From Arthrobacter sp. NicSoilB8 (GTDB lineage Bacteria > Actinomycetota > Actinomycetes > Actinomycetales > Micrococcaceae), in NCBI RefSeq assembly GCF_019977355.1, contig NZ_AP024655.1, positions 1,426,001 to 1,490,000 of the forward strand: a DNA stretch of 64,000 bases. The letters run 5' to 3'. Every line of letters begins with the position of its first letter. Position 1 is the first letter of the stretch. The notes under the pieces were generated by a model. The model had not been told where the DNA came from. It ran no database searches and worked only from the letters and a program-made list of their open reading frames with translations. Of the stretch, positions 6,442 through 55,168 are shown piece by piece. The translations under genes were made by a program, and so were the position numbers.

Positions 6442-6500
6442 GGTTCCAGCCTAATCCACCCCAACAAAGCAACGCGGGGTCACTTAGCGCCCATAAGTCA

Positions 6501-7772
6501 CGGGCAAAGTCATATGGTCGTAGCAACGCTCTGATCGATGGAGCGTTTTATGGTCAAGTTGTTTCCTCCGAATACCCGCACCGACTTCGTTGACATGGTG
6601 TGCGGTGGGATGTCGATAGTCGCCGCGGCCCGGCGTGTCGGGGTCATGCATGGGACCGGAAGGCGGTGGTGGGCGCAGTCTGGCCAGATGATGGCTGTGA
6701 ACATGGGGGCGGTCGGCGGTCTTGCGGATCCGGCACCGACGGTGGAAGGTCCGGGGGGCCGGGCGTTGAATCTGGCTGAGCGGGGGATGATCCAGATGGG
6801 CCGGCGCAGCGGGCTCAGCTACGCCGCAATTGGCGAGGCCATTGGCCGGGACAAGTCGGTGGTCTGGCGGGAAGTGAACCGGAACACCAGCGCGGACGGG
6901 GTGTATTACGCCTCGGTCGCCCACACGAAGGCCCATCAGGGCCGGCGCCGGCCCAAACCGCTGAAGCTGGCCGGGGACGAGACGCTCTGCCGGCTGATCG
7001 GGGTGTGGATGGATGACGGGTGGAGCCCGAAACTGATCTCGGCGATGTTGGCCTTCTACTTCCCCGACGATCAGACTATGCAGGTGAGCCACGAAACGAT
7101 CTACCAGGCGTTATACGTCCAATCCCGCGGAAGTCTGCGGGCAGATCTGGCCGAGAAGCTCAGCTTGAAGCGGAAGCAACGGGTTCCCCACGCCGCGGAC
7201 CGGACCAAGAACAGCCCCTACAAGGAAGCGTTCAAGATCAGTGAGCGCCCGGCCGAGGTCCAGGACCGGGCCGTCCCGGGCCACTGGGAAGGTGATCTCA
7301 TCATCGGCTCCGACGGGACCGCGATCGGCACCCTGGTGGAACGCTCGACCCGGTTCACGATCCTCCTCCACCTTCCCGGGGACCATACCGCCGACACCGT
7401 CGCTGCCGCGATGATCCGGGAGATGGCCAGCCTCCCGGAACACCTGCGCCGCTCAATCACCTGGGACCGCGGCACGGAACTGGCCGAGTACGCCCGGATC
7501 CAAACCGCCCTGGACACCACGCTCTACTTCTGCGACCCGCACTCGCCCTGGCAGCGCGGGACCAACGAGAACACCAACCGGCTCCTGCGGTTCTGGTTCG
7601 AGAAAGGCACGGACCTCTCCGTTCACACCCCGGAGGACCTCCGGCAGGTCGCCGCGAAACTCAACCGCCGGCCCCGGCCCACCCTGAACCTGGAAACCCC
7701 AGCCAACCGGCTGAACCAGCTGCTGCACGCAGCCTAACCCCCCGCGTTGCTACCACTGATTGACTTTGCCCG
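6501..7772 (+). mobile_element. IS30-type insertion sequence, about 1272 bp
   Basis: The terminal inverted repeats are CGGGCAAAGTCA...GTAGCAACG on the left (6501-6528) and its imperfect complement on the right (7745-7772). The outer 12 and inner 9 bases match, and about 7 in the middle differ. One intact transposase gene fills the interior. No target duplication is visible; the left flank reads AAGTCA and the right flank GGGATTA. The element sits in the loop of repeat A1. Confidence 0.85.
6538..7737 (+). CDS. IS30-family transposase
   Basis: This intact 399-residue transposase has an N-terminal helix-turn-helix region (about 85-115, GLSYAAIGEAIGRDKSVVWREVNRN) matching the IS30 DNA-binding domain. 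An rve-type DDE core follows: first Asp in GHWEGDLI, second Asp in TWDRGTE, and Glu in the QRGTNENTNRLLR motif. No frameshift or stop is present and both terminal repeats are retained, so the element may still be mobile. It cuts and pastes or copies the insertion sequence. Neighbouring genes show no trace of a shared operon. Confidence 0.93.
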   Translation: MERFMVKLFPPNTRTDFVDMVCGGMSIVAAARRVGVMHGTGRRWWAQSGQMMAVNMGAVGGLADPAPTVEGPGGRALNLAERGMIQMGRRSGLSYAAIGEAIGRDKSVVWREVNRNTSADGVYYASVAHTKAHQGRRRPKPLKLAGDETLCRLIGVWMDDGWSPKLISAMLAFYFPDDQTMQVSHETIYQALYVQSRGSLRADLAEKLSLKRKQRVPHAADRTKNSPYKEAFKISERPAEVQDRAVPGHWEGDLIIGSDGTAIGTLVERSTRFTILLHLPGDHTADTVAAAMIREMASLPEHLRRSITWDRGTELAEYARIQTALDTTLYFCDPHSPWQRGTNENTNRLLRFWFEKGTDLSVHTPEDLRQVAAKLNRRPRPTLNLETPANRLNQLLHAA

Positions 7773-7826
7773 GGGATTAATGGGCGCCAGGTGACCCCGC
7801 GTTGCTTGTGCGGGAGGCGGTGAACG

Positions 7827-10382
7827 TCAGCGGGAGGCGACTTCTTCGGGCTCGGCTTCGGGCGAGGCCTCCGCTGCGTTCACCCGGGCGCGTGCCGGCT
7901 GGCGGAGCTTGGCGCCCTCGACGTCGACGTCCGGCAGGATCCGGTTCAGCCACCCGGGCAGCCACCATGCCTTGTCGCCGAGCAGGTACATCACGGCCGG
8001 GACGATCGTCATGCGGACCACGAACGCGTCCACCAGCACACCGAACGCCATCGCGAAGCCCAGCGGCCGGACCATGTTCAGGTGCGAGAAGATGAAGCCG
8101 GAGAACACGCTGACCATGATGATGGCCGCGGCGGTCACCACGGACGCGGCATGGCTGAAGCCGGTGCGGACCGCATGCTTGGCCGATTCGCCGTGCATGA
8201 AGGACTCGCGCATGCCCGAGGTAATGAACACCTGGTAGTCCATGGCCAGGCCGAACAGCACGCCGATCAGGATGATGGGCAGGAAGCTCAGCACCGCACC
8301 CGGGTTTTCGACCCCGAACACGTTCCCCAGCCAGCCCCACTGGTAGACGGCGACGACGGCGCCGAAGGCGGCCGCGAGCGAGAGCAGGAAGCCGCCCGTG
8401 GCCAGCAGCGGTACCACGATCGAGCGGAACACGAGCAGGAGCAGAATCAGCGAGAGCCCGACGACGATGGCCAGGTATGGGGGAAGGGCGTCGCCGAGCT
8501 TCGTGGAGACGTCGACGTTACCGGCCGTCTGTCCTGTGAGGCCGATGCTGACGCCGGTCGAATCCTTGATCTGGCCCTTTTCGGCCCGGAGCTCGGAGAC
8601 CACCTTGACGGTGCTGGCGCTGGCCGGGCCCTCCTTGGGAATGACCTGGAACACGGCGGTGCGGCGGTCCTCGCTCAGGGCAACCGGGACGGCGGCGGTG
8701 ACGTTGGCCGTGCCGCGGAGGATATCGGCGACGTCGAGCTGCTTGGCCGCGGCCTCGGCGTCGCTCAGGCCGGCGGGGAGGTCGCCGACCACCACGATCG
8801 GGCCTGTCATGCCTTCGCCGAAGCTGCGGCCGGTGACGTCATAGGCCTTGAACGCCTGCGACTCCACGGGCTCGGACCCGCCGTCGGGCAGTGCGAGCCG
8901 CAGCTGGCTGGCGGGAAGCGCCACGATGCCCAGCAGCAGGACGCCGGCCAGCAGCGCCAGGACCGGGTGCCGCGTGACGAGGCCGCCCCAGCCGCGGGTG
9001 CTGCGGCGTTCATCGCGGGCGCGGTCCTCGGTCTCGTGGCCCGGGGCGGCGTTGTGCGTCTCCGCCTTGGCCCAGGCGCGCCGGGAAATGAGCCTGGGGC
9101 CGATGAGGGACAGCACGGCAGGGGTGAGGGTCAGGGCGACGACGACGGCGACTGCCACAGTCGCGGCGGCCGACAGGCCCATGACCGCCAGGAAGGGAAG
9201 GCCCGGAATGACGAGGGCCGCGAGGGCGATGATGACCGTCAGCCCCGCGAACAGCACGGCGTTGCCGGACGTGCCGGTGGCCAGGGCCACCGATTCCTCC
9301 CCGTCCATGCCGGCCAGCAGCTGGCCGCGGTGCCGGTTGACGATGAAAAGCGAATAGTCGATGCCGACCGCGAGGCCCAGCATCAGGGCCAGCATCGGGG
9401 AGATGGAACTCATGTCGACGGCGCCGCTGAGGGCGAAGGTGCCCCCGACGCCCACTGCCACGCCCACGACGGCCATCAGCAGGGGAAGCCCGGCGGCGAT
9501 CAGCGTTCCCAGCATGACGATGAGCACCAGGGCCGCGATCGCGATGCCGAGGATCTCGGAGATGCCGAACAGCTCGGAGACGTCCTCGGTGATTTCCTTG
9601 CTGGCCAGGGCGGTCACGCCGGCTGATGAGACTTCGTGGGCGATGTCCTGGACCTGCTGGCGCACGGCGGGGGCCAGCCCGTTGATGGAGGACTTGAACT
9701 GGACCTGGGCGATCGCCGCGGTGCCGTCCTCGGAAACGAACCGCATACCCTGCGAGGCCTCAAGCTGGCGCTTGGCGAGCGCGAGCTTTGCCGCGCCGGC
9801 CTCGAGTTCCGTGGTCCCGGCGTCGAGCTTTTCCTGGCCCGCGGCCAGGGCGGCCTTCTGCTGGCCGAGCCGGGCATCGATGGCCGCCGGGGGCATGCCT
9901 GCCGCGATCATCTGCTGCTCGGCGGCGTCCAGCTGGGCCTTCCCTGCCGCCAGCCGGGCGGCCGACGCATCCAGCTGCTCCTTTCCCGCGGAGGCCTGCT
10001 GCTCCCCGGCGGCAAGATCCGTGACGGCCTTGTCCAGCTGGGCCTGGGTGGCGAACGGGTCCACCGTGCCCTGAACGTCGGGGAGGGCCTTCAGCTTGGC
10101 CAGTGCGGCCGAGACGGCGTCCCTGCCGGCCTGGGTGAACGGGCCGTCCGTGGACTCGAACACGATGCCGGCCGACCCGCCGGAGGACTTGGGCAGCTCC
10201 TGCTTGAGCTTGTCCGCCATCTGCTGGGTCTCGGTGCCGGGGATCTGGAAGTTGTTGGACATGGTGCCGTGGAAAGCCGCCGCTGCGCCGCCGACGGCCA
10301 CCATGACGGCGAGCCAGAGGGAGATGACGAGCCAGCGGTGACGGTAGGAGAACTTGCCGAGACGGTAGAGCAATAGGGCCAT
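7827..10382 (-). CDS. MMPL/RND-family membrane transporter
   Basis: This 851-residue protein has the MMPL layout: one helix near residues 18-40, a large extracytoplasmic domain, then a five-helix bundle, and the same arrangement repeated in the second half. The first external domain contains a long Ala/Gln/Leu-rich heptad-like segment (about 115-215), probably a coiled hairpin. LALMLGLAVGIDYSLFIVNRHR and LFGLAMDYQVFITSGMRE are the paired conserved helix-4 motifs with proton-relay Asp residues. MMPL proteins export lipids, siderophores or drugs. Its ATG lies one base after the stop of the TetR gene, so the two form an operon and the regulator is probably its repressor. The substrate is unknown. 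Confidence 0.9.
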   Translation of the reverse strand: MALLLYRLGKFSYRHRWLVISLWLAVMVAVGGAAAAFHGTMSNNFQIPGTETQQMADKLKQELPKSSGGSAGIVFESTDGPFTQAGRDAVSAALAKLKALPDVQGTVDPFATQAQLDKAVTDLAAGEQQASAGKEQLDASAARLAAGKAQLDAAEQQMIAAGMPPAAIDARLGQQKAALAAGQEKLDAGTTELEAGAAKLALAKRQLEASQGMRFVSEDGTAAIAQVQFKSSINGLAPAVRQQVQDIAHEVSSAGVTALASKEITEDVSELFGISEILGIAIAALVLIVMLGTLIAAGLPLLMAVVGVAVGVGGTFALSGAVDMSSISPMLALMLGLAVGIDYSLFIVNRHRGQLLAGMDGEESVALATGTSGNAVLFAGLTVIIALAALVIPGLPFLAVMGLSAAATVAVAVVVALTLTPAVLSLIGPRLISRRAWAKAETHNAAPGHETEDRARDERRSTRGWGGLVTRHPVLALLAGVLLLGIVALPASQLRLALPDGGSEPVESQAFKAYDVTGRSFGEGMTGPIVVVGDLPAGLSDAEAAAKQLDVADILRGTANVTAAVPVALSEDRRTAVFQVIPKEGPASASTVKVVSELRAEKGQIKDSTGVSIGLTGQTAGNVDVSTKLGDALPPYLAIVVGLSLILLLLVFRSIVVPLLATGGFLLSLAAAFGAVVAVYQWGWLGNVFGVENPGAVLSFLPIILIGVLFGLAMDYQVFITSGMRESFMHGESAKHAVRTGFSHAASVVTAAAIIMVSVFSGFIFSHLNMVRPLGFAMAFGVLVDAFVVRMTIVPAVMYLLGDKAWWLPGWLNRILPDVDVEGAKLRQPARARVNAAEASPEAEPEEVASR

Positions 10383-10383
10383 G

Positions 10384-11055
10384 TCAGTGCCGATCTGGGG
10401 AAGGGGCGGAGGGAGAGCGGGAAGCGAAGCCGGAGCCGAGGAGGCTCATGGAGTCGATGAGAAGCTGGCGCAGGATGGACAAGGACGCCGGGCTGAGGTC
10501 GCCGCCGCAGCGGGCGAACCACACGTCCATGGCCGCCTTGCCGCAGGAGATGATGGAGCCCGCGAGGGCGCGGAGATACAGCTCGTCGATCTCGCCGCCG
10601 GCGCGCCGGGCGAAGCGCTCGCGGGCGGCCTCGATGATCTGTGCGGTGCAGTGGTCCCAGGCTTCCAGCTCGGAGCGGCTGAGCTGGGGATTGGCCTGGC
10701 CCAGGCTGTAGATTTCGGCCACCGGTGCCACGGTCATGGGATCGGCCAATTCAACGAGGGCCGCACGGGCCGACTCCAGGATTGGCTCCTCGGCCGGCCG
10801 GAGCCGGAACTGCTGAAGTGCCGTGTCCAGGAACCCGAACGTCACCGAGGCCAGTGCTGCCTCGGTGCTGCCGAAGTAGTTGAAGAACGTGCGGCGCGAT
10901 ATCCCGGCGGCCTCGGCAATGTCCTCCACCGTGAAGTTTCCGGGGCCCCGGGTCCTGAGCAGGTCCAGGGCGGCGTCCGTGATGGCCTGCCGGGTGGCCG
11001 CCTTGTTTAGTTCGCGCCGGTTCGGTTCGCGGGAAGAAGATGATGGTGAGGCCAC
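10384..11055 (-). CDS. TetR-family transcriptional regulator
   Basis: The 223-residue protein has an N-terminal TetR helix-turn-helix (about residues 20-65: AITDAALDLLR, FTVEDIAEAAGISRRTFFNYFGS) and a variable ligand-binding domain. The start is GTG at 11053-11055. A candidate promoter places the transcription start at or within a base or two of this GTG, so the mRNA may be leaderless. A dyad lies between the -35 and -10. The gene is immediately upstream of and co-directional with the MMPL transporter, so it probably represses both its own gene and the transporter in response to a transported compound. Confidence 0.9.
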   Translation of the reverse strand: MASPSSSSREPNRRELNKAATRQAITDAALDLLRTRGPGNFTVEDIAEAAGISRRTFFNYFGSTEAALASVTFGFLDTALQQFRLRPAEEPILESARAALVELADPMTVAPVAEIYSLGQANPQLSRSELEAWDHCTAQIIEAARERFARRAGGEIDELYLRALAGSIISCGKAAMDVWFARCGGDLSPASLSILRQLLIDSMSLLGSGFASRSPSAPSPDRH

Positions 11056-11061
11056 GCGCTT

Positions 11062-11091
11062 ACACTACGTGCATGTTTGCACTCTGGGCAA
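11062..11091 (-). promoter_or_regulatory. Candidate promoter and operator of the TetR-MMPL operon
   Basis: Read on the minus strand, TTGCCC (11086-11091) and TAGTGT (11062-11067) are separated by 18 bp. Between them lies the dyad GTGCA-N4-TGCAC (11069-11082). The -10 ends six bases before the GTG start codon at 11055, leaving no room for a ribosome site. A regulator on the dyad would block polymerase. This is inferred from position and symmetry. Confidence 0.5.
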
Positions 11092-11277
11092 GTATTTATT
11101 CCATCCCTGGGGCCCCGCGGCAGCGGCATCACGGCGGGATTCACAGGAAAGTGAAAGCTGGGAAACAGCTATCTCTGCTGGGGCAGGTGCAGACTGGAAA
11201 TGGTCGTGGAGCAGACTTCCCCGGAAGAACCAGCAGCCTCAAGCGCCGTCACGGCACGGCAGACCCAGGAGACACAC

Positions 11278-11847
11278 ATGTCACGCACAACCAGAATCGC
11301 ACTCAGCCTTGGGGCCGCGGCGGTGGCTCTTGGGGCCGGGATCGGCGTCGCCGGGATGGCCTCTGCCACGACGACGCCGACCCCCACCCCGACGCCCACT
11401 TCCACCGGGCCCACTTCCGCCGCCCCGGGCGGCACCTTCGCCGACGGCCACGGCATGCGCGGCGGCCGGCACGGCCACGGAGGTGCGGAGTTCGGTGCCC
11501 GTGCCAAGGAACTTGCCGCCAAGCTGGGCGTCGACGAGGCCAAGGTCTCCGACGCGCTGAAGGCCTTCCGGGACGCCAATAGGCCGGCAGCGCCGCCGGC
11601 CGAAGGACAGAAACCGGACCGCGCCGCCATGGAGAAGGCCCTGGCCGCTTCCCTGGCGAAATCGCTCGGCATCGACGAGGCCAAGGTCACCGCGGCCCTC
11701 GAGGAGCTGCGCACCTCGGAGCAGGCCAACCATGCCGCAGCGCTGAAGCCCCGGCTGGACCGGGCCGTCAAGGACGGCGTCCTGACCCAGGCGGAGGCGG
11801 ATGCCGTCACCAAGGCGGCGGAAAAGGGTGTGATCGGCGGGCGTTAA
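11278..11847 (+). CDS. Small exported protein with LGVDEAKV repeats
   Basis: The chosen start is ATG 11278, preceded by GGAG at a suitable distance. It gives a clean signal peptide (SRTTR, then a hydrophobic ALSLGAAAVALGAGIGVAGM core, then ASA). A longer frame from 11200 would bury the signal peptide. The mature region begins with a Thr-Pro-Thr-Pro linker, then a His/Gly-rich patch, then two related helical units (KLGVDEAKVSDALKAFRD and SLGIDEAKVTAALEELR). These short helical repeats occur in actinobacterial secreted proteins of unknown function. The C-terminal EADAVTKAAEKG resembles the same fold. No enzymatic motif is visible. Confidence 0.7.
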   Translation: MSRTTRIALSLGAAAVALGAGIGVAGMASATTTPTPTPTPTSTGPTSAAPGGTFADGHGMRGGRHGHGGAEFGARAKELAAKLGVDEAKVSDALKAFRDANRPAAPPAEGQKPDRAAMEKALAASLAKSLGIDEAKVTAALEELRTSEQANHAAALKPRLDRAVKDGVLTQAEADAVTKAAEKGVIGGR

Positions 11848-11882
11848 TGCCCGCGCGGGGACGTTCCGGCGTCGGTGACACG

Positions 11883-11928
11883 GGAGAAGTCCCCGGGGAG
11901 CAGTGAACTGCTCCCCGGGGACTTCTCC
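11883..11928. terminator. Perfect 22-bp inverted repeat between convergent genes
   Basis: The arms 11883-11904 and 11907-11928 are perfectly complementary over 22 bp, with only two bases between them (the central four form the RNA loop). It lies 35 bp after the exported-protein gene and 49 bp before the stop of the convergent symporter gene. There is no T-tract, so it may act as a two-way terminator or an mRNA-stabilising hairpin. It is unusually perfect. Confidence 0.65.
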
Positions 11929-11977
11929 ACATCAGCGCTTCCTGTAAGACGCTTCCGTCAGACGTTGGGTTCGGTGG

Positions 11978-13658: not shown

Positions 13659-13704
13659 ACACTCGCCGTCGGCCCGAGGACGGCAGGTCTCCCCGGGAGC
13701 CGCC

Positions 13705-26752: not shown

Positions 26753-26821
26753 AAGCAACGCGGGGTCACATACGGCCTGTCCCGGACCTCCGGATGGACC
26801 GTATGTGACCCCGCGTTGCTT
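26753..26821. repeat. 69-bp palindromic repeat A2
   Basis: The outer arm AAGCAACGCGGGGTCAC and its complement GTGACCCCGCGTTGCTT flank inner arms ATACGGCCTGTCC and GGATGGACCGTAT with a 9-nt centre. It lies five bases after the ridA stop and 45 bp before the SulP start. Several inner-arm positions differ from copies A4 and A5 on both sides together, so pairing is preserved. There is no T-tract. Confidence 0.9.
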
Positions 26822-28591: not shown

Positions 28592-28660
28592 AAGCAACGC
28601 GGGGTCACTTCCGGCCCATCAGGACCGCCGGGATGGGCCGGGAGTGACCCCGCGTTGCTT
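28592..28660. repeat. 69-bp palindromic repeat A3
   Basis: It has the invariant 17-nt outer arms; inner arms TTCCGGCCCATC and GATGGGCCGGGA pair with one wobble. It starts immediately after the SulP stop codon and ends 23 bp before the stop of the convergent response-regulator gene, so it sits exactly where the two transcripts meet. Confidence 0.9.
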
Positions 28661-32792: not shown

Positions 32793-32861
32793 AAGCAACG
32801 CGGGGTCACTTACGGCCCATCCGGAGGCCCGGGATGGACCGTAAGTGACCCCGCGTTGCTT
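32793..32861. repeat. 69-bp palindromic repeat A4
   Basis: Invariant outer arms enclose inner arms TTACGGCCCATCC and GGATGGACCGTAA; pairing also extends outward by ACA/TGT. It begins seven bases after the citrate transporter stop and lies 89 bp before gatC. Confidence 0.9.
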
Positions 32862-36374: not shown

Positions 36375-36440
36375 CCCAACTGACTCGCAGCAGGGGCCGT
36401 TTTGAGCGCTCTAAACGGCCCCTGCTGCGAGTTACTTGGG
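36375..36440. repeat. 66-bp palindromic repeat B1
   Basis: CCCAACTGACTCGCAGCAGG begins the element, and its near-complement ends it. The arms pair over about 28 bp around a centre containing GAGCGCTC. It lies 12 bp after the gatB stop and 9 bp before the stop of the convergent LysR gene. A second copy of identical length is B2 at 61455. Confidence 0.88.
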
Positions 36441-36449: not shown

Positions 36450-37364
36450 TTACTTGGGTGAACCGACCAAATCGGTCATGATGGTCTGCAGCGCTTCGCA
36501 GACCATCATGACCGATGTTCGTTTAAGGTTCTCCGGCCGGGCCAGGACGTCGATCCGGCGCCGGGTGCTGATGCCCTCCAGCGGCCGCAGCACAATGTCC
36601 GGGTTCAACACCGGCCGCGCGGTGTACCGGGGCAGCAGGCCGATCACGCCGCCGGCCGCCACGAGCGCCGCCACGGTGGAGTAGTCGTTGATGCGGTGCA
36701 CAATGTTCAGTTCCCGGCTGGAGACCGCCGCGACGGCGGACAGCACGTCCGCGGGGGAGTACCCGGCGCGGCTCGTCACCCACGGTTCGCCGACGACGTC
36801 ATCCGCCGTCACCGCGCGCTGGCCGGCCAGCCGGTGCCCGGCCGGCAGCGCCACGTCCAGCGGCTCATGCGCGAGCGGGATCACCGCGACGCGCTCCTCG
36901 GGCCAGCGCGGGCTGTGATCCATCCGGTGCGCCAGCACGAGGTCATACCGCGCCGTCAGGGCCGGGAAATCCTGCTGGGCCACATCTTCGTCGGAGAGCA
37001 GGATCCGAGGCCGGCCCGGACCGTCCAGCAGCCGGGCCAGCGGCGCGAACAGCGCCTGCCCGGCGCTGTGGAACCCGCTGAGCGTCACCGGCGCAACGGG
37101 CGAGCCGTGATAGGCGCCGATCGCCATCTTCGCATCCGCCATCGCGCTGACGACGGCGGCGCCGGCGTCCGCGAGAACCTGGCCTGCCTCGGTGAGCACC
37201 AGGTTCCGGCCCTCCTTCCGGGTCAACGGAACCTCCACGGTCTTCTGCAGCGCGGCCAGCTGCTGGGACACGGCCGAGGGCGTCACGAGGAGGGTTTCGG
37301 CGACGGCCTTGACGCTGCCCAGGGCGCCGAGCTCGCGCAGCATCTCCAGTTGGTGGATTTCCAT
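36450..37364 (-). CDS. LysR-family regulator divergent from tdh-kbl
   Basis: This 304-residue regulator has an N-terminal LysR helix-turn-helix (MEIHQLEMLRELGALGSVKAVAETLLVTPSAVSQQLAALQKTV) and a periplasmic-binding-like effector domain (about 90-295). The ATG at 37364 fits the family N-terminus; ATGs at 37373 and 37388 lie upstream in frame. The last bases overlap a direct repeat, TTACTTGGGTGAACCG, next to palindrome B1. It is transcribed away from threonine dehydrogenase across a 217-bp gap with a strong dyad (37389-37411), so control of threonine catabolism is likely but inferred. Confidence 0.88.
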   Translation of the reverse strand: MEIHQLEMLRELGALGSVKAVAETLLVTPSAVSQQLAALQKTVEVPLTRKEGRNLVLTEAGQVLADAGAAVVSAMADAKMAIGAYHGSPVAPVTLSGFHSAGQALFAPLARLLDGPGRPRILLSDEDVAQQDFPALTARYDLVLAHRMDHSPRWPEERVAVIPLAHEPLDVALPAGHRLAGQRAVTADDVVGEPWVTSRAGYSPADVLSAVAAVSSRELNIVHRINDYSTVAALVAAGGVIGLLPRYTARPVLNPDIVLRPLEGISTRRRIDVLARPENLKRTSVMMVCEALQTIMTDLVGSPK

Positions 37365-45805: not shown

Positions 45806-45874
45806 AAGCAACGCGGGGTCACTTGCGGCCCGTCCGGAGCGCCTGGACGGGCCGCAAGTGACCCCGCGTTGCTT
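45806..45874. repeat. 69-bp palindromic repeat A5
   Basis: Invariant outer arms enclose inner arms TTGCGGCCCGTCC and GGACGGGCCGCAA that pair perfectly. Relative to A4, the TTA/TAA and CAT/ATG positions change on both sides together. It lies 10 bp after the CPBP stop, between convergent genes. Confidence 0.92.
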
Positions 45875-45948: not shown

Positions 45949-45998
45949 TCGGCCGCCATCTAAGGGTGACATCGTTGGCACCCTTAGATGGCGGCCGA
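45949..45998. terminator. 20-bp perfect hairpin between convergent genes
   Basis: Arms 45949-45968 and 45979-45998 are perfectly complementary around a 10-nt loop. It lies 21 bp before the stop of the VOC gene (minus strand), with A/T-rich sequence on the left flank. It probably ends transcription of the VOC gene, where the left flank supplies T residues on the minus strand. Confidence 0.75.
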
Positions 45999-46657: not shown

Positions 46658-46693
46658 GCCATCATCTTGGCACTTTGTGATGCGGCTCTCAGC

Positions 46694-46830: not shown

Positions 46831-46837
46831 GAATCAA

Positions 46838-46950
46838 GGTCATGAGTGCCAGCGCACAGCCCCGGCTTGCTGGCCGGCAACCCTCGTATCGCGGTGGGGT
46901 GCCCCGGGTGAAGACCCGGCCGTCCGGCGCCCGCCGGAGGGCAAGCGCGG
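46838..46950 (+). promoter_or_regulatory. SAM-IV riboswitch upstream of metY
   Basis: The leader reads GGTCATGAGTGCCAGCG, then CCCGGCTTGCTGGCCGGCAA, then GGGGTGCCCCGGGTGAAGAC, ending with a hairpin and GGCAAGCGCG. This is the SAM-IV core. GGTC (46838-46841) pairs with GACC (46913-46916) as P1, and the 3' hairpin and pseudoknot partner follow. SAM-IV switches bind S-adenosylmethionine and repress sulfur-metabolism genes in Actinomycetales. A further 64-nt leader with a GTCCGGGCC/GGCCCTGGAC stem lies between the aptamer and metY and may be its expression platform. Confidence 0.92.
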
Positions 46951-47014
46951 CGCCTGTGCCGGTCCGGGCCGATGGCCCTGGACGGTGCTGTGCCCGGTCC
47001 CTTGAGGAGCATCA

Positions 47015-48331: not shown

Positions 48332-48429
48332 GTGTGCCGACGGCGCCGGCACTGTCCGTGAAAGGGGAGTGCCGGCGCCCGGCTGTCACATGGAAGTCAC
48401 AATCTTCGTCATTTCCGCACCCTGTTTCG

Positions 48430-48435
48430 TACACT
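48430..48435 (+). promoter_or_regulatory. Candidate -10 box of metX
   Basis: TACACT sits seven bases before the second SAM-IV core, matching the metY arrangement. It implies that metX has its own promoter 94 bp after the metY stop. Confidence 0.45.
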
Positions 48436-48442
48436 CGTACAA

Positions 48443-48554
48443 GGTCATGAGTGCCAGCGACAGCCCCGGCTTGCTGGCCGGCAACCCTCCTTTTGCGGCG
48501 GGGTGCCCCGGGTGAAGACCTGGCCTGCCGGTCAGCTGACGGCAGGCAAGCGCG
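48443..48554 (+). promoter_or_regulatory. SAM-IV riboswitch upstream of metX
   Basis: The same core as the metY leader is present: GGTCATGAGTGCCAGCG, CGGCTTGCTGGCCGGCAA, GGTGCCCCGGGTGAAGACC, and a final hairpin CTGCCGGTCAGCTGACGGCAG followed by GCAAGCGCG. P1 pairs GGTC (48443-48446) with GACC (48517-48520). Its 3' end lies only 15 nt before the metX ATG, so ligand binding may hide the ribosome site and act on translation. This differs from the longer leader of metY. Confidence 0.92.
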
Positions 48555-48569
48555 AAGTTAGGTCCTCAC

Positions 48570-49835
48570 ATGACGATTGCCGTCACCCGCAGCGGTGAAC
48601 CCGAAACCAAACAAGCCCGAAATTCCGGTACCGCCGGCAGCACTCCTGCCGGAAGTGCCCCGGGCAGCACTCCTGCCGGCAGTGCCCCGGGCGGTGCGTC
48701 CGCCGGAAGTGCCCCGGGCGGTGCGTCCGCCGGCATTGCGTCCCGCGTGCCGGACGGGACAGTCCAGCACGTCCGGATCGGTGACCTGCAGCTCGAATCC
48801 GGGGTCCCGCTGCCGGATGTCGTCCTCGCCTATGAGACGTGGGGAACCCTGAACGCGGATGCCTCCAACGCCGTCCTGATTGAACATGCCCTGACCGGGG
48901 ACACCCATGTGACCCGCGGCGCCAGCGAGGAACCCGGCTGGTGGGAACAGCTGGCCGGACCCGGTGCTCCCGTGGACACGGACAAATACTTCGTCGTGTC
49001 GATCAACATCCTGGGCGGCTGCTACGGCTCCACGGGCCCTTCCACTCCGGCCCCCGACGGGCGCCCCTGGGGATCGCGCTTTCCGCTCGTCACGCTGCGG
49101 GACACCACCGCCGCCGAGGCGCGCCTGGCCGACGCCCTGGGCATCGGCAGCTGGTACGCGGTCGTGGGAGGCTCGCTCGGCGGCGCGCGCGCCCTGGAAT
49201 GGGCCGTCACGTACCCGGGGCGGGTCCGGCGCTGCGCCGTGATTTCGGTCGGCGCCAGCAGCACCGCCGAACAGATCGCCTTTGCGCAGGCCCAGACCCT
49301 GGCCATCCGCCAGGACCCGCACTTCAACGGCGGCGACTACTACGGCGGCCCGGAACCCGAGGCCGGGCTGGCCCTGGCCCGCCGCATCGCGCACATCACC
49401 TACCGCTCCGCGGCCGAACTCGACGGCCGGTTCGGCCGCAACGCCCAGGAGTCCGAGGCGCCCCTGGAGGCAGGGTCGCTGGCCGGACGCGGCCGCTACC
49501 AGGTGGAAAGCTACCTCGACCACCAGGGCAACAAGCTGGTCCGGCGCTTCGATGCCAACAGCTACATCGCCATCACCGAGGCGCTCATGAGCCACGACGT
49601 CTGCCGCGGGCGCGGAAGCCTCCGCGAATCGCTGGCTCCGGCCACAGCTGAGTTCCTGGTGGCGGCCGTCGACTCGGACCGCCTGTACTTCCCGGCCCAG
49701 TCCCGGGCCCTGGCCGAGGCCCTGCCGGGCGGCGCCGACGTGCACATCATCGAGGCGCCGATCGGCCACGACGGCTTCCTGACCGAAATCGGCCAGCTTA
49801 GCGGCCAGCTTCGGGAGACCTTCTTCGGCCACTAG
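48570..49835 (+). CDS. metX: Homoserine O-acetyltransferase
   Basis: This 421-residue alpha/beta-hydrolase-type acyltransferase has LPDVVLAYETWGTLN and INILGGCYGSTGPSTP. The nucleophilic Ser is in VGGSLGGARALEWA (about residue 202), and the final acid and His lie near DSDRLYFP and IGHDGFLTE. It acetylates homoserine with acetyl-CoA, making the substrate for MetY. Residues 23-58 are a four-fold 9-residue repeat (GSTPAGSAP, then GGASAGSAP types), absent from the catalytic fold. The riboswitch above controls it. Confidence 0.93.
   Translation: MTIAVTRSGEPETKQARNSGTAGSTPAGSAPGSTPAGSAPGGASAGSAPGGASAGIASRVPDGTVQHVRIGDLQLESGVPLPDVVLAYETWGTLNADASNAVLIEHALTGDTHVTRGASEEPGWWEQLAGPGAPVDTDKYFVVSINILGGCYGSTGPSTPAPDGRPWGSRFPLVTLRDTTAAEARLADALGIGSWYAVVGGSLGGARALEWAVTYPGRVRRCAVISVGASSTAEQIAFAQAQTLAIRQDPHFNGGDYYGGPEPEAGLALARRIAHITYRSAAELDGRFGRNAQESEAPLEAGSLAGRGRYQVESYLDHQGNKLVRRFDANSYIAITEALMSHDVCRGRGSLRESLAPATAEFLVAAVDSDRLYFPAQSRALAEALPGGADVHIIEAPIGHDGFLTEIGQLSGQLRETFFGH
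48636..48743 (+). repeat. 27-bp tandem repeat x4 at the metX 5' end
   Basis: Four degenerate 27-bp units begin at 48636, 48663, 48690 and 48717. Units 1-2 encode GSTPAGSAP and units 3-4 encode GGASAGSAP/GGASAGIAS. They form a flexible N-terminal extension of MetX in frame. Confidence 0.88.
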
Positions 49836-49846
49836 GCCCGGCCGCC

Positions 49847-49872
49847 GTGTGCGTTTTTGCAGATGCGCTCTG
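49847..49872. promoter_or_regulatory. 26-bp box shared with the lysR/mmsB gap (copy 1)
   Basis: GTGTGCGTTTTTGCAGATGC followed by GCTCTG matches the box at 52473-52498 at 22 of 26 positions. It lies 131 bp upstream of the MHS transporter ATG. The shared sequence suggests that the neighbouring LysR protein controls the transporter. Confidence 0.6.
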
Positions 49873-50002
49873 CACTAATGGCCGTTGAGGCCCAGGGCGG
49901 GAGCGTCCATACTCGTGGGGAATGACGCCGTGTGCCCTGCATCACAGGCGTCCTCAGCCCAATGGTCCACAGGGCGTCGATGGCGACGCCGAAGGAGTCT
50001 CG

Positions 50003-51382
50003 ATGAGTACGGAAAACGCTGCAAGGCGCGCTGAAGAAACCGACGTCAAAACGTCCGGTCTCAAGAAGGTGGTGGCGGCCTCCATGGCCGGCACCGTGGT
50101 GGAATGGTACGAATTTTTCCTCTACGCATCCGCGGCCACACTGGTCTTCGGCAAGGCGTTCTTCCCCAATTCAGGCACGGAACTGGACGGCATCCTCGCG
50201 GCCTTCCTCACCTACGCCGTCGGCTTCATCGCCCGCCCGATCGGCGGAATCGTGTTCGGCCACTTCGGCGACAAATTCGGCCGCAAGCAGCTGCTCCAGC
50301 TCAGCATTATCCTGGTAGGCGTGTCCACCTTCCTGATGGGCTGCCTCCCCACGTTTGCGCAGATCGGCTACTGGGCCCCGGCGCTGCTGGTCTTCCTGCG
50401 CTTCGCCCAGGGCTTCGCCGTCGGCGGTGAATGGGGCGGCGCCGTCCTCCTGGTCGCCGAGCACAGCCCCAGCAAGTCCCGCGGCTTCTGGGCCAGCTGG
50501 CCGCAGTCTGCCGTCCCGCTCGGCAACCTCTTCGCCACCGCTGTGCTGTTCATCCTGTCCTCCGTGCTGTCCTCCGCGGACTTCCTCGGCTGGGGCTGGC
50601 GGGTCGCCTTCTGGCTCTCGGCAGTGATCGTCCTGATCGGCTACTACATCCGCACCAAGGTCCGCGACGCCCCGATCTTCCTGGAAGCACGCAAGGAGGT
50701 CGAAGCAGGCCACAAGGGCTACGGCGTTGCCGAGGTCTTCCGCCGCTACCCCCGCGGCGTGTTCACCGCGATGGGCCTGCGCTTCGCGGAAAACATCCTG
50801 TACTACCTCGTGGTCACGTTCTCGATCACCTACCTCAAGACGGTGGTCCACGCCGACACCTCCCGGATCCTGCTGCTCCTGCTGGTGGCGCACTTCATCC
50901 ACTTCTCCGTGGTGCCCATGGTCGGCAGGCTCTCGGACAGGCTGGGCCGCAAGCCCGTCTACATGGCCGGCGCCGTTCTCGGTGCGACCTGGGGCTTCTT
51001 CGCCTTCCCGATGATGGACACCGGAAACGATCTCATCATCCTCGCCGCGGTCATCATCGGGCTGCTCTTCCACGCCCTGATGTACGCCGGTCAGCCGGCC
51101 ATCATGGCGGAGATGTTCCCGACCCGCATGCGGTACTCCGGTGTTTCCCTCGGCTACCAGGTGACCTCGATCGTGGCCGGTTCGCTCGCGCCGATCATCG
51201 CCGTCGCGCTCCTGGGCCAGTTCAAGTCGTCCGTCCCGGTGGCCATCTACCTCCTGATCGCCTGCGCGATCACCGCCGTCGCCGTCTTCTTCCTCAAGGA
51301 GACCCGCGGCGTCTCGCTGCACGACGTCGACGCCGCCGATGCCCGGGGCACCGCGGACCTCCTCGCCGCCGGCAAACGGTAG
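50003..51382 (+). CDS. MHS-family MFS transporter next to mmsBA
   Basis: This 459-residue, 12-helix metabolite:H+ symporter has [17 protein letters not shown], loop [29 protein letters not shown] and second-half loop SDRLGRKP. The ATG at 50003 is placed after GAAGGAG; the frame is open 81 bp upstream without a ribosome site. It precedes a LysR gene and mmsB-mmsA, and shares a 26-bp upstream box with them. It probably imports a branched-chain or hydroxy-acid substrate of that pathway; this is inferred from context. Confidence 0.87.
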
Positions 51383-51450
51383 TCCGCCGGTAAACGGCAT
51401 CCCCGCCGGAAGGGGAAACCCGCCGGGGAAACCCTTTGCGGGGCAGGCTG

Positions 51451-51479
51451 CCCGGATCCGCGCACTGCGCGGACCCGGG
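51451..51479. terminator. GC-rich hairpin between convergent genes
   Basis: Arms 51451-51463 and 51467-51479 pair at 12 of 13 positions around ACT. There is no T-tract. It lies between the MHS transporter stop and the LysR stop and may act in both directions. Confidence 0.55.
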
Positions 51480-51500
51480 CAACCTGGGTTAACCCGCGGA

Positions 51501-52409
51501 TCAGCCGGACAGCACGTCCTGGCGGTCCCGGATTTCCTGGCGGATCGCCTCCAGTACGGCACGGACCGGGGCCGAGCGCAGCGCCTCGGGCCGGGCCACC
51601 GCCCAGATGGGGAGCTGGCGCTGGAAGTCGTCGGGCAGAACGGGCACGAAGCCGGGCCTGCCCGCCACGAGGAAGTTCGGGAGCAGACCGATCCCGCCGC
51701 CCCGCCGGACCGCCTCCAGCTGGGCGAAGACGCTGGTGGCCTGGAAGCTGGACCGCGGCACCGGCAGCTGCGTGGAGCGGTGGCCCAGCTCGGCCACCTG
51801 GAGCGCCGACTCGACGTAGGAGACAAAGCCGTGCTGCCGGACGTCGTCGAGCGTTGCCGGAAGCCCGTGCTCCTGCGCATACGCGGGACTGGCGTAGAGC
51901 CTGAGGAAGTAGTTGCTCAGGAAGATGGCCTGGGCATTTGCGGTCTCCATGGTGCCCACCACCACCTCAAGGTCCACGCCGGAGCGGTTTTGGCTCACCT
52001 TGCGGGTGGCGCTGAGCAGCTCCACGTTGAGCAACGGACTGGCCCGCTGGAGCCGCACGAGGGCGGGCGCGAGGAACTCGCTGCCGAAGCCGTCCGGGGT
52101 GCTGATGCGGACCAGGCCGGAGACCACGTCGCCGGAGCGGGCGATGCTGCTGGACAGGGCGCCCAAAGTGCCCTCGATGGCCTCGGCCGCGGCGACGGCC
52201 CGGCTGCCGAGCTCGGTCAGCTCCCAGCCGTGCGGGCTGCGTTCCAGCGTCCGGCCGCCAAGCTGCTTGTCCAGTGCCAGGACCCGGCGGGAGATGATGG
52301 TGTGGGTCGTGCCGAGCGTCTCCGCGACCGCGTTGAACCGGCCCAGCCGCGCCACCGTCAGCAGGATGAGCAGGTCATCGGGGCTCGGAAGCCGACGCAG
52401 GTCCACCAT
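51501..52409 (-). CDS. LysR-family regulator of the mms region
   Basis: This 302-residue regulator has the LysR helix-turn-helix (LPSPDDLLILLTVARLGRFNAVAETLGTTHTIISRRVLALDKQLGG) and an effector-binding domain (about 90-300). The ATG at 52409 follows AAGGAGG at good spacing. An in-frame GTG further up at 52490 would translate the candidate operator. It is divergent from mmsB across a 232-bp gap. The 26-bp box at 52473-52498 lies 64-89 bp before its start codon, the usual place for a LysR recognition site. Confidence 0.9.
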   Translation of the reverse strand: MVDLRRLPSPDDLLILLTVARLGRFNAVAETLGTTHTIISRRVLALDKQLGGRTLERSPHGWELTELGSRAVAAAEAIEGTLGALSSSIARSGDVVSGLVRISTPDGFGSEFLAPALVRLQRASPLLNVELLSATRKVSQNRSGVDLEVVVGTMETANAQAIFLSNYFLRLYASPAYAQEHGLPATLDDVRQHGFVSYVESALQVAELGHRSTQLPVPRSSFQATSVFAQLEAVRRGGGIGLLPNFLVAGRPGFVPVLPDDFQRQLPIWAVARPEALRSAPVRAVLEAIRQEIRDRQDVLSG

Positions 52410-52472
52410 GGCCCTCCTTTGTGAGTGTTTGCGGTCAACGGACACGGAGGAATACGGGTCCGGCGGCCGCCG

Positions 52473-52498
52473 GTGTGCATTTGTGCACATGCCCTCTG
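52473..52498. promoter_or_regulatory. 26-bp box shared with the MHS transporter (copy 2)
   Basis: GTGTGCATTTGTGCACATGC followed by CCTCTG contains the palindrome TGTGCACA and matches 49847-49872 at 22 of 26 positions. It lies in the lysR-mmsB gap, 64-89 bp before the LysR ATG. Confidence 0.6.
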
Positions 52499-52641
52499 TG
52501 ATTTTTTACCTTGATTGCACTCTAACAGGGTGTGATTGTGGACACTGGGTTGCCGGGCTTTCGGCCCTCAGGCCGGAGCGGGCGGAGGCGCCCGGCAACC
52601 ACCAAGAAGCACGGCAATCACCAAGCAAAGGAGCTTATGCC

Positions 52642-53544
52642 ATGGCAGTTATCGCCTGGATCGGACTGGGAAACATGGGCGGGTCCATGTCGGTCAACCT
52701 CGCCAAGGCCGGACATGAGGTCCGCGGCTTCGACCTCAACGCCGGGGCCGTTGCCGCCGCCGGGGCCGGGGGAGTCACACCGGCCGGCAGCATCGCCGAG
52801 GCAGTCGGCGGCGCCGACGTCGTCTTCACCATGCTCCCCAAGGGCGACCACGCCCGGGCCGTATACCTGGGCGAGGCCGGGATCCTGGCACAAGCCGACA
52901 CCCGGACGCTGCTGGTGGATTCCTCCACCATTGACATCGCCTCCGCCCAGGCCCTGCACGACGCCGCCGCTGCCGCCGGCTTCCGCTTCGTCGACGCGCC
53001 CGTCTCGGGCGGCATGAGCGGGGCAAAGGCCGCCACCCTGACCTTCATGATCGGCGGCGAGGCCGGCGCCGTCGCCGACGCCACCGAATACATCAGGCCG
53101 ATGGCGGCGAACATCATCCCCACCGGCGGCGCCACCACCGGCCAGGCCGCCAAAATCTGCAACAACCTCATGCTCTTCATCAACCTCGCCTCCACGGCCG
53201 AGGGCGCGGTCCTTGCCGACCGTCTGGGCCTGGACAAGCAGGTCTTCTGGGACATCGCCTCGGTCTCCTCCGGGGACAGCTGGGCCCTCCGCACCTGGTA
53301 TCCCGTGGCCGGCGTCGTGCCCACCGCGGCGTCGAACAACGGCTTCGCCCCGACCTTCACCACCGAACTCGCCAACAAGGACATCGGCCTGGCCATCAGC
53401 GCCGCCCGCGACACCGGCACCCCGCTGGCGCTGGGCGAGCACGTCCAGCAGCTCTTCCAGCGGCTCATCGATTCAGGCCAGTCCGGGATGGACTGCTCCG
53501 CAATCGTCAAGCTGGTCGACGGTTCGCTCGACTCCGCCAACTAG
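52642..53544 (+). CDS. mmsB: 3-hydroxyisobutyrate dehydrogenase
   Basis: This 300-residue beta-hydroxyacid dehydrogenase has the Rossmann motif WIGLGNMGGSMSVNLAKAGH, the substrate motif FVDAPVSGGMSGAKAATLTFMIGG, and the catalytic Lys in GQAAKICNNLML. It oxidises 3-hydroxyisobutyrate to methylmalonate semialdehyde in valine degradation. The ATG at 52642 follows AAAGGAG; an out-of-frame ATG lies at 52637. mmsA begins 54 bp downstream and takes the product. Confidence 0.92.
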   Translation: MAVIAWIGLGNMGGSMSVNLAKAGHEVRGFDLNAGAVAAAGAGGVTPAGSIAEAVGGADVVFTMLPKGDHARAVYLGEAGILAQADTRTLLVDSSTIDIASAQALHDAAAAAGFRFVDAPVSGGMSGAKAATLTFMIGGEAGAVADATEYIRPMAANIIPTGGATTGQAAKICNNLMLFINLASTAEGAVLADRLGLDKQVFWDIASVSSGDSWALRTWYPVAGVVPTAASNNGFAPTFTTELANKDIGLAISAARDTGTPLALGEHVQQLFQRLIDSGQSGMDCSAIVKLVDGSLDSAN

Positions 53545-53598
53545 GCACCCTGCTCCCTGCCCCCGGCCTTAACGGCCCCCCACGAAAGAGACCACCCC

Positions 53599-55083
53599 AT
53601 GGAACGCATTCCGCACTTCATCAACGGCGCCCTGATTTCCGACGCCGAGCGCTACGGACCCGTCTACAACCCGGCCACCGGCGAGCAGGAAAAGGAAGTT
53701 GCCCTCGCCTCCGCCGCCCGCGTCGGGGAAGCCGTCGAGGCGGCCCGCGCCGCCCTGCCCGGCTGGCGCGCCACCAGCCTGTCCAAACGCACCACCATCT
53801 TCTTCAAGGTCCGCGAATTGCTCATGCAGCGCCGGCCCGAGCTGGCAGCCCTGCTCACCAGCGAGCACGGCAAGGTCCTCTCCGACGCCGAAGGCGAGAT
53901 CACGCGCGGCCTGGAGAACATCGAATTCGCTACCGGGCTGTCCCACATGCTCAAGGGCGAGCGCTCCGAGCAGGTGGCCGGCGGCGTCGACGTCCACTCG
54001 GTCCGCCAGCCCGTCGGCGTCGTCGCCTGCATCACGCCCTTCAACTTCCCCGCCATGGTGCCGCTGTGGATGATCGGCAGCGCCCTGGCCTGCGGCAACA
54101 CCGTGCTGCTCAAGCCGAGCGAGAAGGATCCGTCCTCCGCCATCTTCATCGCCCAGGTCTTCGCCGAAGCCGGGCTGCCCGCCGGCGTCCTCAACGTGGT
54201 CCACGGCGACAAGGAAGCCGTCGACGTCCTGCTGGAGCACCCTGCCGTGAAGGCCGTCAGCTTCGTCGGCTCGACGCCGATCGCGCAGTCCATCTACAAG
54301 CGCGCCGCGGACCACGGCAAGCGCGTCCAGGCTCTGGGCGGAGCGAAGAACCACATGGTGGTCCTGCCGGATGCCGACCTCAACATGGCCGCCGACGCCG
54401 CCGTCTCGGCCGCCTACGGCTCCGCCGGGGAGCGCTGCATGGCCGTCAGCGTCCTGGTCGCCGTCGGCAGCATCGCGGATGAACTCGTGGACGCGATCAG
54501 CACCCGCATGGCCACGCTCACGATCGGTCCCGGCACGGACCCGGCCTCCCAGATGGGCCCGCTCATCACAGCCGAACACCGTGACAAGGTGGCCTCCTAT
54601 GTCGCCGGTGCTGCGGACGAAGGCGCCACCGTGGTGGTGGACGGCCGCGAGCAGGAGTTCGATTCCAACGGCTTCTTCCTCGGCGTCAGCCTGATCGATC
54701 ATGTCAAGCCGGGCATGAAGGTCTACGACGACGAGATCTTCGGCCCCGTCCTCTCGGTGGTCCGCGTCGAGACCTACGCGGACGCCGTGAAGCTGGTCAA
54801 CGACAACGAGTTCGGCAACGGCGTGGCGATCTTCACCCGCGACGGCGGCGCCGCCCGCCAGTTCGAGTTCGACGTCGAAGCCGGCATGGTGGGCGTCAAC
54901 GTGCCCATCCCGGTGCCGGTGGGCACCTTCTCCTTCGGCGGCTGGAAGAACTCGCTCTTCGGCGACACCCACATGTACGGCCCGGAGAGCATCCGCTTCT
55001 ACACCCGCGGCAAGGTGGTCACCACCCGCTGGCCGGACCCCGCCACCTCGGTGATCGACCTCGGCTTCCCCCAGGTGGACTGA
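53599..55083 (+). CDS. mmsA: CoA-acylating methylmalonate-semialdehyde dehydrogenase
   Basis: This 494-residue aldehyde dehydrogenase has the MmsA start IPHFINGALI, cofactor region ITPFNFPAMVPLWMIGSALACGNTVLLKPSEKDP, VGSTPIAQSIYKRAADHGKRVQALGGAKNHMVV, and the catalytic Cys in GSAGERCMAVSV. MmsA oxidises methylmalonate or malonate semialdehyde to propionyl- or acetyl-CoA with NAD+ and CoA. The motif GERCM rather than GQxC is typical of the subgroup. It ends the mmsB-mmsA operon, and repeat A6 starts 16 bases after its stop. Confidence 0.94.
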   Translation: MERIPHFINGALISDAERYGPVYNPATGEQEKEVALASAARVGEAVEAARAALPGWRATSLSKRTTIFFKVRELLMQRRPELAALLTSEHGKVLSDAEGEITRGLENIEFATGLSHMLKGERSEQVAGGVDVHSVRQPVGVVACITPFNFPAMVPLWMIGSALACGNTVLLKPSEKDPSSAIFIAQVFAEAGLPAGVLNVVHGDKEAVDVLLEHPAVKAVSFVGSTPIAQSIYKRAADHGKRVQALGGAKNHMVVLPDADLNMAADAAVSAAYGSAGERCMAVSVLVAVGSIADELVDAISTRMATLTIGPGTDPASQMGPLITAEHRDKVASYVAGAADEGATVVVDGREQEFDSNGFFLGVSLIDHVKPGMKVYDDEIFGPVLSVVRVETYADAVKLVNDNEFGNGVAIFTRDGGAARQFEFDVEAGMVGVNVPIPVPVGTFSFGGWKNSLFGDTHMYGPESIRFYTRGKVVTTRWPDPATSVIDLGFPQVD

Positions 55084-55099
55084 CCCCCGCCCCCGCATA

Positions 55100-55168
55100 A
55101 ACCAACGCGGGGTCACATACGGCCCATCCACGGCAGGATTATGGGCCGTAAGTGACCCCGCGTTGCTG
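55100..55168. repeat. 69-bp palindromic repeat A6 (degenerate outer arm)
   Basis: It has the same length and outer arm as the others except for one substitution (AACCAACG for AAGCAACG) and a non-matching last base. The inner arms ATACGGCCCAT and ATGGGCCGTAA pair almost fully. It lies 16 bp after the mmsA stop. It looks older or less constrained than the other copies. Confidence 0.88.

Follow-up and report, generated by a model that had tools for sequence, protein, structure and literature searches.

Dispersed 69-bp palindromes near gene ends in Arthrobacter sp. NicSoilB8 and an IS30-family element at the centre of some copies

Palindromes and an insertion sequence in the window

The window, which is the whole 64,000-nucleotide stretch of Arthrobacter sp. 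NicSoilB8 DNA that was analysed (contig NZ_AP024655.1, positions 1,426,001–1,490,000; coordinates below count from its first letter), contains six palindromes, five of them intact at 69 bp and the sixth split. From half-sites and measured lengths, the intact copies were placed at 26753–26821 (A2), 28592–28660 (A3), 32793–32861 (A4), 45806–45874 (A5) and 55100–55168 (A6). Twelve half-sites were found where the sequence-only reading had put them; ten matched exactly and two had one mismatch. In 100 shuffles, half-sites with up to 3 mismatches averaged 0.32 and never exceeded 2. That reading had ascribed a single change to the outer arm of A6; it was found that each of its two outer arms carries one.

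The remaining copy, A1, had been described as a split copy with halves at 6467–6500 and 7773–7807. It proved to be a palindrome interrupted at its centre by a 1.27-kb IS30-family insertion sequence on the plus strand (6503–7770; 1268 bp between inverted GGCAAAGTCA ends, with a 2-bp duplication, CG). The transposase gene (6538–7737, plus strand) encodes 399 amino acids and matched the IS30 transposase model NF033563 with 261 bits as well as Pfam HTH_38 and rve. The halves of A1, both on the plus strand, are therefore 6467–6502, which has an exact outer arm and was delimited by the sequence and the end of the element, and 7771–7807, obtained by half-site search and sequence. If the element spans 6503–7770 and has the 2-bp duplication, these halves would close to a site of about 70–71 bp, where the earlier cut gives 69 bp. 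Each of A2–A6 measures exactly 69 bp.

By our own simple gene caller, the distances from stop codon to palindrome were 5, 0, 7, 10 and 16 bp for A2 to A6. The proposed position 0–19 bp behind a stop was borne out for these five scored copies (0–16 bp), as was the lack of a T-tract in the flanks. Two palindromes of a second family, each 66 bp long, lie between convergent stops at 36375–36440 and 61455–61520, the same niche as that of the 69-bp family.

Size, anatomy and gene-end position of the family

The 5.2-Mb genome was found to contain at least 71 intact palindromes, all 71 exactly 69 bp long. Four further palindromes, A1 among them, are interrupted centrally by one IS30-family element, which brings the family to ∼75 dispersed copies. 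Of the distinct palindrome copies in other genomes, 159/164 also measured 69 bp. The loops of the copies within this genome differ on average at 8.1 of 13 positions, yet the length is constant.

Across the 71 copies, the unit has a near-invariant 13-bp outer block at each end (positions 4–16), followed inwards by a covarying module (positions 17–22), the motif GCCCAT and a free 13-nt loop. Positions 17, 18, 20, 21 and 22 paired with their mirror positions above all 300 shuffles, in a test that ignores kinship among the copies; the covariation of the inner arms first noticed in the window was thus recovered genome-wide. The suggested sequence constraint on the outer arm likewise agreed with the near-invariance of positions 4–16. 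At one site gathered via its neighbouring genes, outer-block differences amounted to 2/156 and the loops differed at 2.7 of 13 positions. Because detection favoured copies with intact arms, the outer block's conservation depends in part on how copies were detected, and recent amplification could mimic constraint on it. In the stretches fetched, unpaired arms were accounted for by IS30 interruptions, by ends of insertion sequences, by a partial and a decayed copy, or by weak two-mismatch matches. None of the palindromes reached an Rfam gathering score; only sub-threshold microRNA-like matches were obtained.

The palindromes are strongly biased towards gene ends. According to our own gene calls, none of the 71 copies lies wholly inside a gene, and at eight gene ends a copy overlaps the gene by 1–52 bp. 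Convergent pairs hold 32 copies, co-directional pairs 33 and divergent pairs 6, where the share of intergenic bases predicts 9.5, 38.4 and 23.1, a threefold enrichment between convergent genes and a depletion between divergent ones. Among the co-directional copies, 32/33 are nearer to the stop than to the start. The 144 copies scored in other genomes gave a similar distribution (79 convergent, 59 co-directional, 5 divergent and 1 inside a gene), with 57/59 co-directional copies closer to the stop. Positions are therefore not random relative to stops, as the sequence-only reading had proposed.

The long stems right after stop codons and the threefold convergent excess would suit hairpin-only two-way transcription terminators or 3′-end RNA stabilisers, in which an RNA hairpin would serve both strands by halting polymerase or blocking exonucleases. 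Intrinsic terminators without a U-tract resemble the palindromes in having a strong hairpin behind stops, often between convergent genes. However, a terminator would need neither a near-invariant 13-bp block nor a constant length, only ∼75 copies are known in the 5.2-Mb genome, and the flank composition over the 71 copies revealed no run of T after the stem-loop. The left flanks are C-rich and the right flanks G-rich. Complementary flank runs were examined as a possible sign of a pre-existing hairpin target: runs of at least 5 occurred in 23 copies against 11.7 expected (reached in 0/200 shuffles), of at least 6 in 8 against 4.1 (12/200 shuffles) and of at least 7 in 2 against 1.0.

The IS30-family element and the search for a mobiliser

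The genome carries four copies of the IS30-family element with 100% protein identity, and all four lie within palindromes. For the interrupted palindrome at C1:3908205, the halves add up to exactly 69 bp (36 + 36 − 3). IS30 sat at the palindrome dyad in 19/21 scored copies, and 3-bp duplications accompanied 12/15 insertions. These results demonstrated that the IS30-family element inserts at the dyad of the palindrome, mostly with a 3-bp duplication. Insertion of IS30 into nearly palindromic hot spots is known (PMC9333248); the likeness is the nearly palindromic target, here entered at its centre, and the difference is that the sites in this case belong to a dispersed family of repeats. The REP-targeting families named in PMC1525189 are IS3, IS110, IS4, IS256 and IS5, and its table gives a partial REP association for IS1655 in Neisseria (2/13 and 2/6), an IS30-family element according to a title cited in PMC9333248.

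Could the palindromes be non-autonomous relatives (MITEs) of this element, moved by its transposase? Like MITEs, they are short, have inverted ends and vary in copy number among species, and AGCAACGCGGGG near the right tip of the element matches the outer arm over 12 bases. Nevertheless, the tips GGCAAAGTCA are absent from the palindrome consensus, and the subterminal CAACGC stays in elements with GGCAAAGTCA-type ends despite differing target blocks. In other species, IS30 elements occupy palindromes with quite different outer blocks. A related transposase (E ≤ 1e-40) was found in 10/19 genus relatives with at least 10 palindrome matches, against 8/17 with fewer, which shows no relation between copy number and the occurrence of such transposases. 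In a further difference from MITEs, no target duplication was found at the palindromes, and no autonomous parent sharing their ends was found in the fetched stretches. We regard this origin as very improbable; the element as mobiliser of the palindromes was discounted because of the copy-number comparison and the end sequences.

REP elements are characterised by a GTAG-type head and a link to RAYT transposases, by which they are usually explained. The Arthrobacter palindromes share with the REP, BIME and REPIN elements of Enterobacteria and Pseudomonas their multi-copy extragenic occurrence near stops and their use as a target for insertion sequences, but they differ in lacking a GTAG-type head and in forming a unit of constant length, 69 bp, almost all of which is one palindrome. 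A classical REP/REPIN system that had lost its RAYT, or whose RAYT lay beyond the genomes searched, would fit the similar outline of architecture, the 3′-end position and the insertion-sequence target. Against it, no Y1/RAYT transposase (PF01797) was found in the Arthrobacter sp. NicSoilB8 genome. The domain was present in 1/101 genus genomes, where its two loci had no arm core at up to 2 mismatches, while many genus genomes have tens of palindrome matches. Such a system therefore seems quite improbable. Of the REP/RAYT-type resemblance noted earlier, the dispersed, REP-like character stood; the RAYT was sought in this genome and not found.

At the palindrome borders, there was no consistent excess of direct repeats over shuffled pairings: among 216 settings, the top scores came from single copies and the next (e.g. 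8 against 3.4) were modest for so many tests, in a test that could miss short duplications with a variable border. As neither a target duplication nor a clean insertion border was found, the case for dispersal by transposition is drawn from copy number and presence/absence. Ten of the proteins encoded between neighbouring copies were scanned for a cognate gene, and they were of transport, metabolic, regulatory and uracil-glycosylase types; one had a weak restriction-endonuclease-like match (PF18741) below the cut-off. One exact 24-base pattern had no match in viral contigs, and BLAST of A5 gave no match in phage records and two in plasmid records, the latter being megabase-sized replicons from Arthrobacter sp. 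StoSoilB13. Among the titles listed by literature searches, none describes the 69-bp repeat, and a search on REP/RAYT in Actinobacteria gave no match. A table in PMC12306157 includes an Arthrobacter livingstonensis row. A 12-base piece of the palindrome arm appears in two papers with unrelated titles.

Orthologous sites and interpretation

At the five window sites compared with up to three relatives (G019, G106 and G109), the palindrome was present or absent by species. A2 has a degenerate orthologue in G019 and is missing from G106 and G109. A3 is missing from G109 and G106, with at most a remnant in G019, and its loop is inverted relative to L230. A4 has an orthologue with an inverted loop in G109, and its place in G019 is occupied by a different, 57-bp palindrome, as if any hairpin would do, which would favour a terminator; searching with a strict 57-bp family pattern gave 1–2 copies in 10/198 genus genomes. 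A5 is missing from all three relatives. A6 has an orthologue in G106 and a right-half remnant in G109, while G019 was not reached. As the remnants show, loss accounts for part of this pattern.

The loop was inverted in 6/24 orientable orthologue groups, above chance; the loops are 13 nt long, and 12/36 groups and 144/214 pairs could not be oriented. Strict inversions were observed in 10/214 orthologous pairs (5 groups), of which about 1 is expected by chance, compared with 15/2485 non-orthologous pairs. An inverted loop could instead be another copy re-inserted at the same place.

Between the closest orthologues, 47/58 changed stem pairs were one-sided (Watson–Crick/mismatch). Two-sided changes numbered 10 against 3.9 in shuffles (2/1000 shuffles reached 10), and changes that kept Watson–Crick pairing numbered 4 against 0.7. 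The excess of compensatory changes anticipated from the window thus exists relative to shuffles, but such changes are far fewer than one-sided ones (4 against 47). Both excesses would suit a terminator, and selection on a hairpin also predicts the two-sided excess. No RNA-sense preference for G.U over A.C was seen in either transcript-oriented count (15 against 17, and 14 against 16 in other genomes), in contrast to what a terminator would lead one to expect; a further count of G.T and A.C between orthologues (9 against 13) was not transcript-oriented and says nothing on RNA. With stem changes mainly one-sided as well, we consider a terminator or RNA stabiliser unlikely. Of the selected inner hairpin proposed earlier, it stood that the arms co-change beyond chance; the dominance of one-sided changes and the missing G.U preference tell against selection. 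Taken with the loop inversions, the stem changes fit DNA arm-to-arm copying better than a selected RNA hairpin.

On balance, we lean towards reading the palindromes as a lineage-specific, REP-like extragenic repeat without a RAYT, with a constrained outer block and a role as landing pad for IS30. A sequence-specific protein, probably dimeric, would recognise, in duplex DNA, the two outer blocks set a fixed distance apart, from which it would follow that the outer block and the length are kept better than the inner-stem pairing. The arms may sometimes pair, as a hairpin or as a cruciform during replication, and template switching would then copy arm onto arm and flip the loop, giving apparently compensatory arms without RNA selection. 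Dispersal would have resembled transposition; the enzyme for it was not found, and it does not appear to be a RAYT. Copies would persist mainly behind stops, either where they do least harm or as a two-way 3′-end boundary.

More tentatively, it is possible that Arthrobacter-group genomes hold parallel constant-length families (69 bp, 66 bp and others) of shared architecture that compete for the 3′-end niche and spread by non-RAYT means. That architecture would comprise a family-specific outer recognition block, a covarying module and a conserved inner motif; IS30 elements would be parasites of a parasite, and template switching would flip the centres and keep the arms matched without RNA selection.

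A large REP-like family in a RAYT-less genome raises the question of what copies such repeats. The IS30 result provides a genomic set of dyad-centred targets, and the target choice of that transposase family is of practical interest. For RNA biology there is a caution, because matched palindrome arms are normally taken to prove that an RNA hairpin is under selection, whereas here orthologues show inverted loops and G.U is not preferred, which points to the copying of one DNA arm onto the other.

Copy number and anatomy of the palindromes

Searching the window for the half-site AAGCAACGCGGGGTCAC with up to 3 mismatches allowed returned 12 half-sites (0.32 expected), each with at most 1 mismatch. 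These paired up into five intact 69-bp palindromes and one split pair, so that of the six copies described in a sequence-only reading, five were intact and the sixth was found to be interrupted by an IS30-family element.

The covariance-model search and copy count proposed in that reading were carried out on the whole genome (5.17 Mb, two contigs), using the exact arm and a model built from the five window copies. At least 75 palindromes were obtained, 71 intact and 4 split by IS30; this is a lower bound because the model search scored 150 of 2930 candidates. Every listed copy was on the first contig (C1), with 52 of the 75 in the origin half and 23 in the terminus half (binomial P = 0.0005; origin set near dnaA at C1:394). 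A partial arm at C1:2563160-2563187 precedes an intact copy by 27 bp, as though one copy had inserted next to or into another, and the neighbours at C1:4430533 and C1:4430751, 149 bp apart, are similar in sequence and flanks, as if duplicated together.

All 71 intact copies, paired in fetched stretches, measured exactly 69 bp. Across them, positions 4–16 (CAACGCGGGGTCA) and their mirror positions were nearly invariant, while positions 17, 18, 20, 21 and 22 were variable but showed mirror pairing above all 300 shuffles. Positions 23–28 (GCCCAT) were conserved for the most part, and positions 29–41 formed a free loop. The loops differed at a mean of 8.1 of their 13 positions, but none of the copies had changed in length. 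When copies in other genomes were detected via arms with at most 1 mismatch each, 159 of 164 distinct copies were 69 bp, the remaining five being 57, 67, 68, 70 and 71 bp.

Gene context and distribution among relatives

Gene context was assigned with a simple codon-usage gene caller written for this analysis. None of the 71 copies lay wholly within a gene, and eight gene ends overlapped a copy by 1–52 bp. By flanking genes, 32 copies were convergent, 33 co-directional and 6 divergent, against 9.5, 38.4 and 23.1 expected from the intergenic bases of the same stretches, figures which are approximate since the stretches had been picked around copies. Among 144 placeable copies in other genomes, 79 were convergent, 59 co-directional, 5 divergent and 1 inside a gene. 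The proposed 3′-end bias was borne out: the stop was closer than the start in 32 of 33 co-directional copies here and in 57 of 59 elsewhere. No T-tract followed the palindromes (T fractions of 0.58, 0.38, 0.24 and 0.10 at right-hand positions 1–4).

Palindrome matches were found in 36 of 59 genomes searched: 33 of the 37 genomes from the genus had them, as did 3 of the 22 from elsewhere, where the matches were weak and numbered two or three per genome. A pattern search (total length about 54–84 bp; 0 among the reversed-control rows listed) of 395 genomes of the family matched 42, all from the window's genus; among the matches listed, Arthrobacter predominated in the named relatives, which also included some Pseudarthrobacter and Paenarthrobacter. 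At five of the window sites, NicSoilB8 was set against relatives with 78–95% flank identity. The copy at 26753 (A2) has a decayed orthologue in genome G019 and none in G106 or G109. That at 28592 (A3) is absent from G109 and G106, and G019 keeps a short stretch, possibly a remnant. Of the relatives compared, only G109 shares the copy at 32793 (A4), in whose place G019 carries a different palindrome of 57 bp, and the copy at 45806 (A5) was confined to NicSoilB8. The copy at 55100 (A6) is common to G106, with a remnant in G109; this comparison did not reach G019.

Relatives of the A3 site were also gathered by a stretch including the neighbouring genes. Among the 30 best-matching loci, the element was present at the 3′ end of the gene behind A3 in NicSoilB8 and seven others, six intact (L304–L308, L316) and one split by an IS (L303). 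The six intact loci differed at 2 of 156 outer-block positions and at 2.7 of 13 loop positions. Together with the near-invariance of positions 4–16, this upholds the earlier view that the outer arm is constrained.

Other elements were present nearby. A second, 66-bp palindrome family occurs between convergent stops at 36375–36440 and 61455–61520. Its strict copies in the genome number 15, each with a core of 48 bp. Among 61 genus genomes, 6 carry the family, a single core there measuring 47 bp, and the arm differences between species are matched. Two further strong palindromes, at 36471–36516 and 45949–45998, differ from the dispersed ones in having close counterparts in relatives, and could be terminators or attenuators that have been conserved. 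At 46838–46953 and 48443–48558, 1.6 kb apart, lie two SAM-IV riboswitches whose scores clearly exceed the Rfam gathering cut-off.

Arm coupling and loop inversion

Flank alignment gave 36 orthologous groups (120 members, 214 pairs), in which the loop could be oriented for 24 and was ambiguous for 12. Eighteen of the 24 contained direct pairs only, and 6 had at least one inverted pair. Loci L162 and L169, with flanks 96% identical, showed 10 loop differences in direct and 2 in inverted orientation; for L177 and the NicSoilB8 copy at 3639276 the values were 13 and 1. Under one rule, loops looked inverted in 13 of 214 orthologous pairs versus 30 of 2485 non-orthologous NicSoilB8 pairs taken as control, and under a stricter rule in 10 of 214 (5 groups) versus 15 of 2485.

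Stem changes were scored on the closest pair from each of the 24 groups. One-sided changes between Watson-Crick pair and mismatch numbered 47, and a single change led from one mismatch to another; the 10 two-sided changes comprised 4 Watson-Crick ones and 6 of other kinds. The majority thus broke or mended one side. Two-sided changes exceeded shuffles (10 versus 3.9, reached in 2 of 1000), as did those keeping Watson-Crick pairing (4 versus 0.7; 1 of 1000), and the palindrome arms are therefore coupled. Selection on a DNA hairpin is a possible source of this coupling. The excess of compensatory changes agrees with the selected inner hairpin proposed earlier, but one-sided changes were more frequent, and such selection is not needed. 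Selected RNA helices are expected to favour G·U; in RNA sense, G·U and A·C numbered 15 and 17 in the 33 co-directional NicSoilB8 copies, and 14 and 16 in the 59 from other genomes. Arm-to-arm copying, with amplification from symmetric founders, would produce both arm coupling and loop inversion, and we infer that the two together account for these features jointly.

IS30 insertions and relation to REP elements

The split palindrome in the window encloses a 399-aa frame encoding an IS30-family transposase (NF033563, 261 bits). Among 21 IS30 copies in fetched loci, with ends recognised by two inverted-end patterns, 19 lay within palindromes (arm score ≥16; between-genome null mean 6.0, 95th percentile 9, maximum 16; one of the 19 did no more than match this maximum). 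These were 4 of 4 in NicSoilB8, 8 of 8 in G061, 3 of 3 in G017, 2 of 3 in G102 and one each in G010 and G008; the G013 copy was outside. The arms in G061, G010, G008, G017 and G102 belong to other palindrome families. In G029, among the copies outside the 21 scored, an inverted repeat of 12–20 bp surrounded the element at 2 of 4 loci and none was seen at the other 2. Fifteen copies had GGCAAAGTCA-type ends, with a duplication of 3 bp in 12, 2 bp in two and none in one. Since the element sits in palindromes, mostly with a 3-bp duplication, the palindromes came first. A related element with GCAAAATCATACGGTCG-like ends likewise occurs at L303 and L280, within palindromes of the type seen in the window, and a palindrome at G304:C1:381417-381483 with the IS30 tip GGGCAAAGTCA at its centre resembles the trace left by an insertion since lost.

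The IS30-family transposase was considered as the agent spreading the palindromes. A related transposase was present in 10 of 19 genus relatives with at least 10 repeat matches versus 8 of 17 with fewer (n = 36), which makes this role unlikely. Ten of the proteins encoded between neighbouring palindrome copies were scanned and were ordinary. PF01797, the RAYT transposase domain, had no match in the NicSoilB8 genome and matched in 1 of 101 genus genomes, where palindrome arms were absent from both of its loci.

The 69-bp palindromes are thus a REP-like extragenic family without detectable RAYT. Their working likeness to REP, as multi-copy elements located at 3′ ends and targeted by an IS, is well supported, in line with the REP resemblance noted in the sequence-only reading; on the defining gene, however, they fall outside REP-RAYT. 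We infer that the palindrome functions by being recognised as a duplex whose spacing is fixed.
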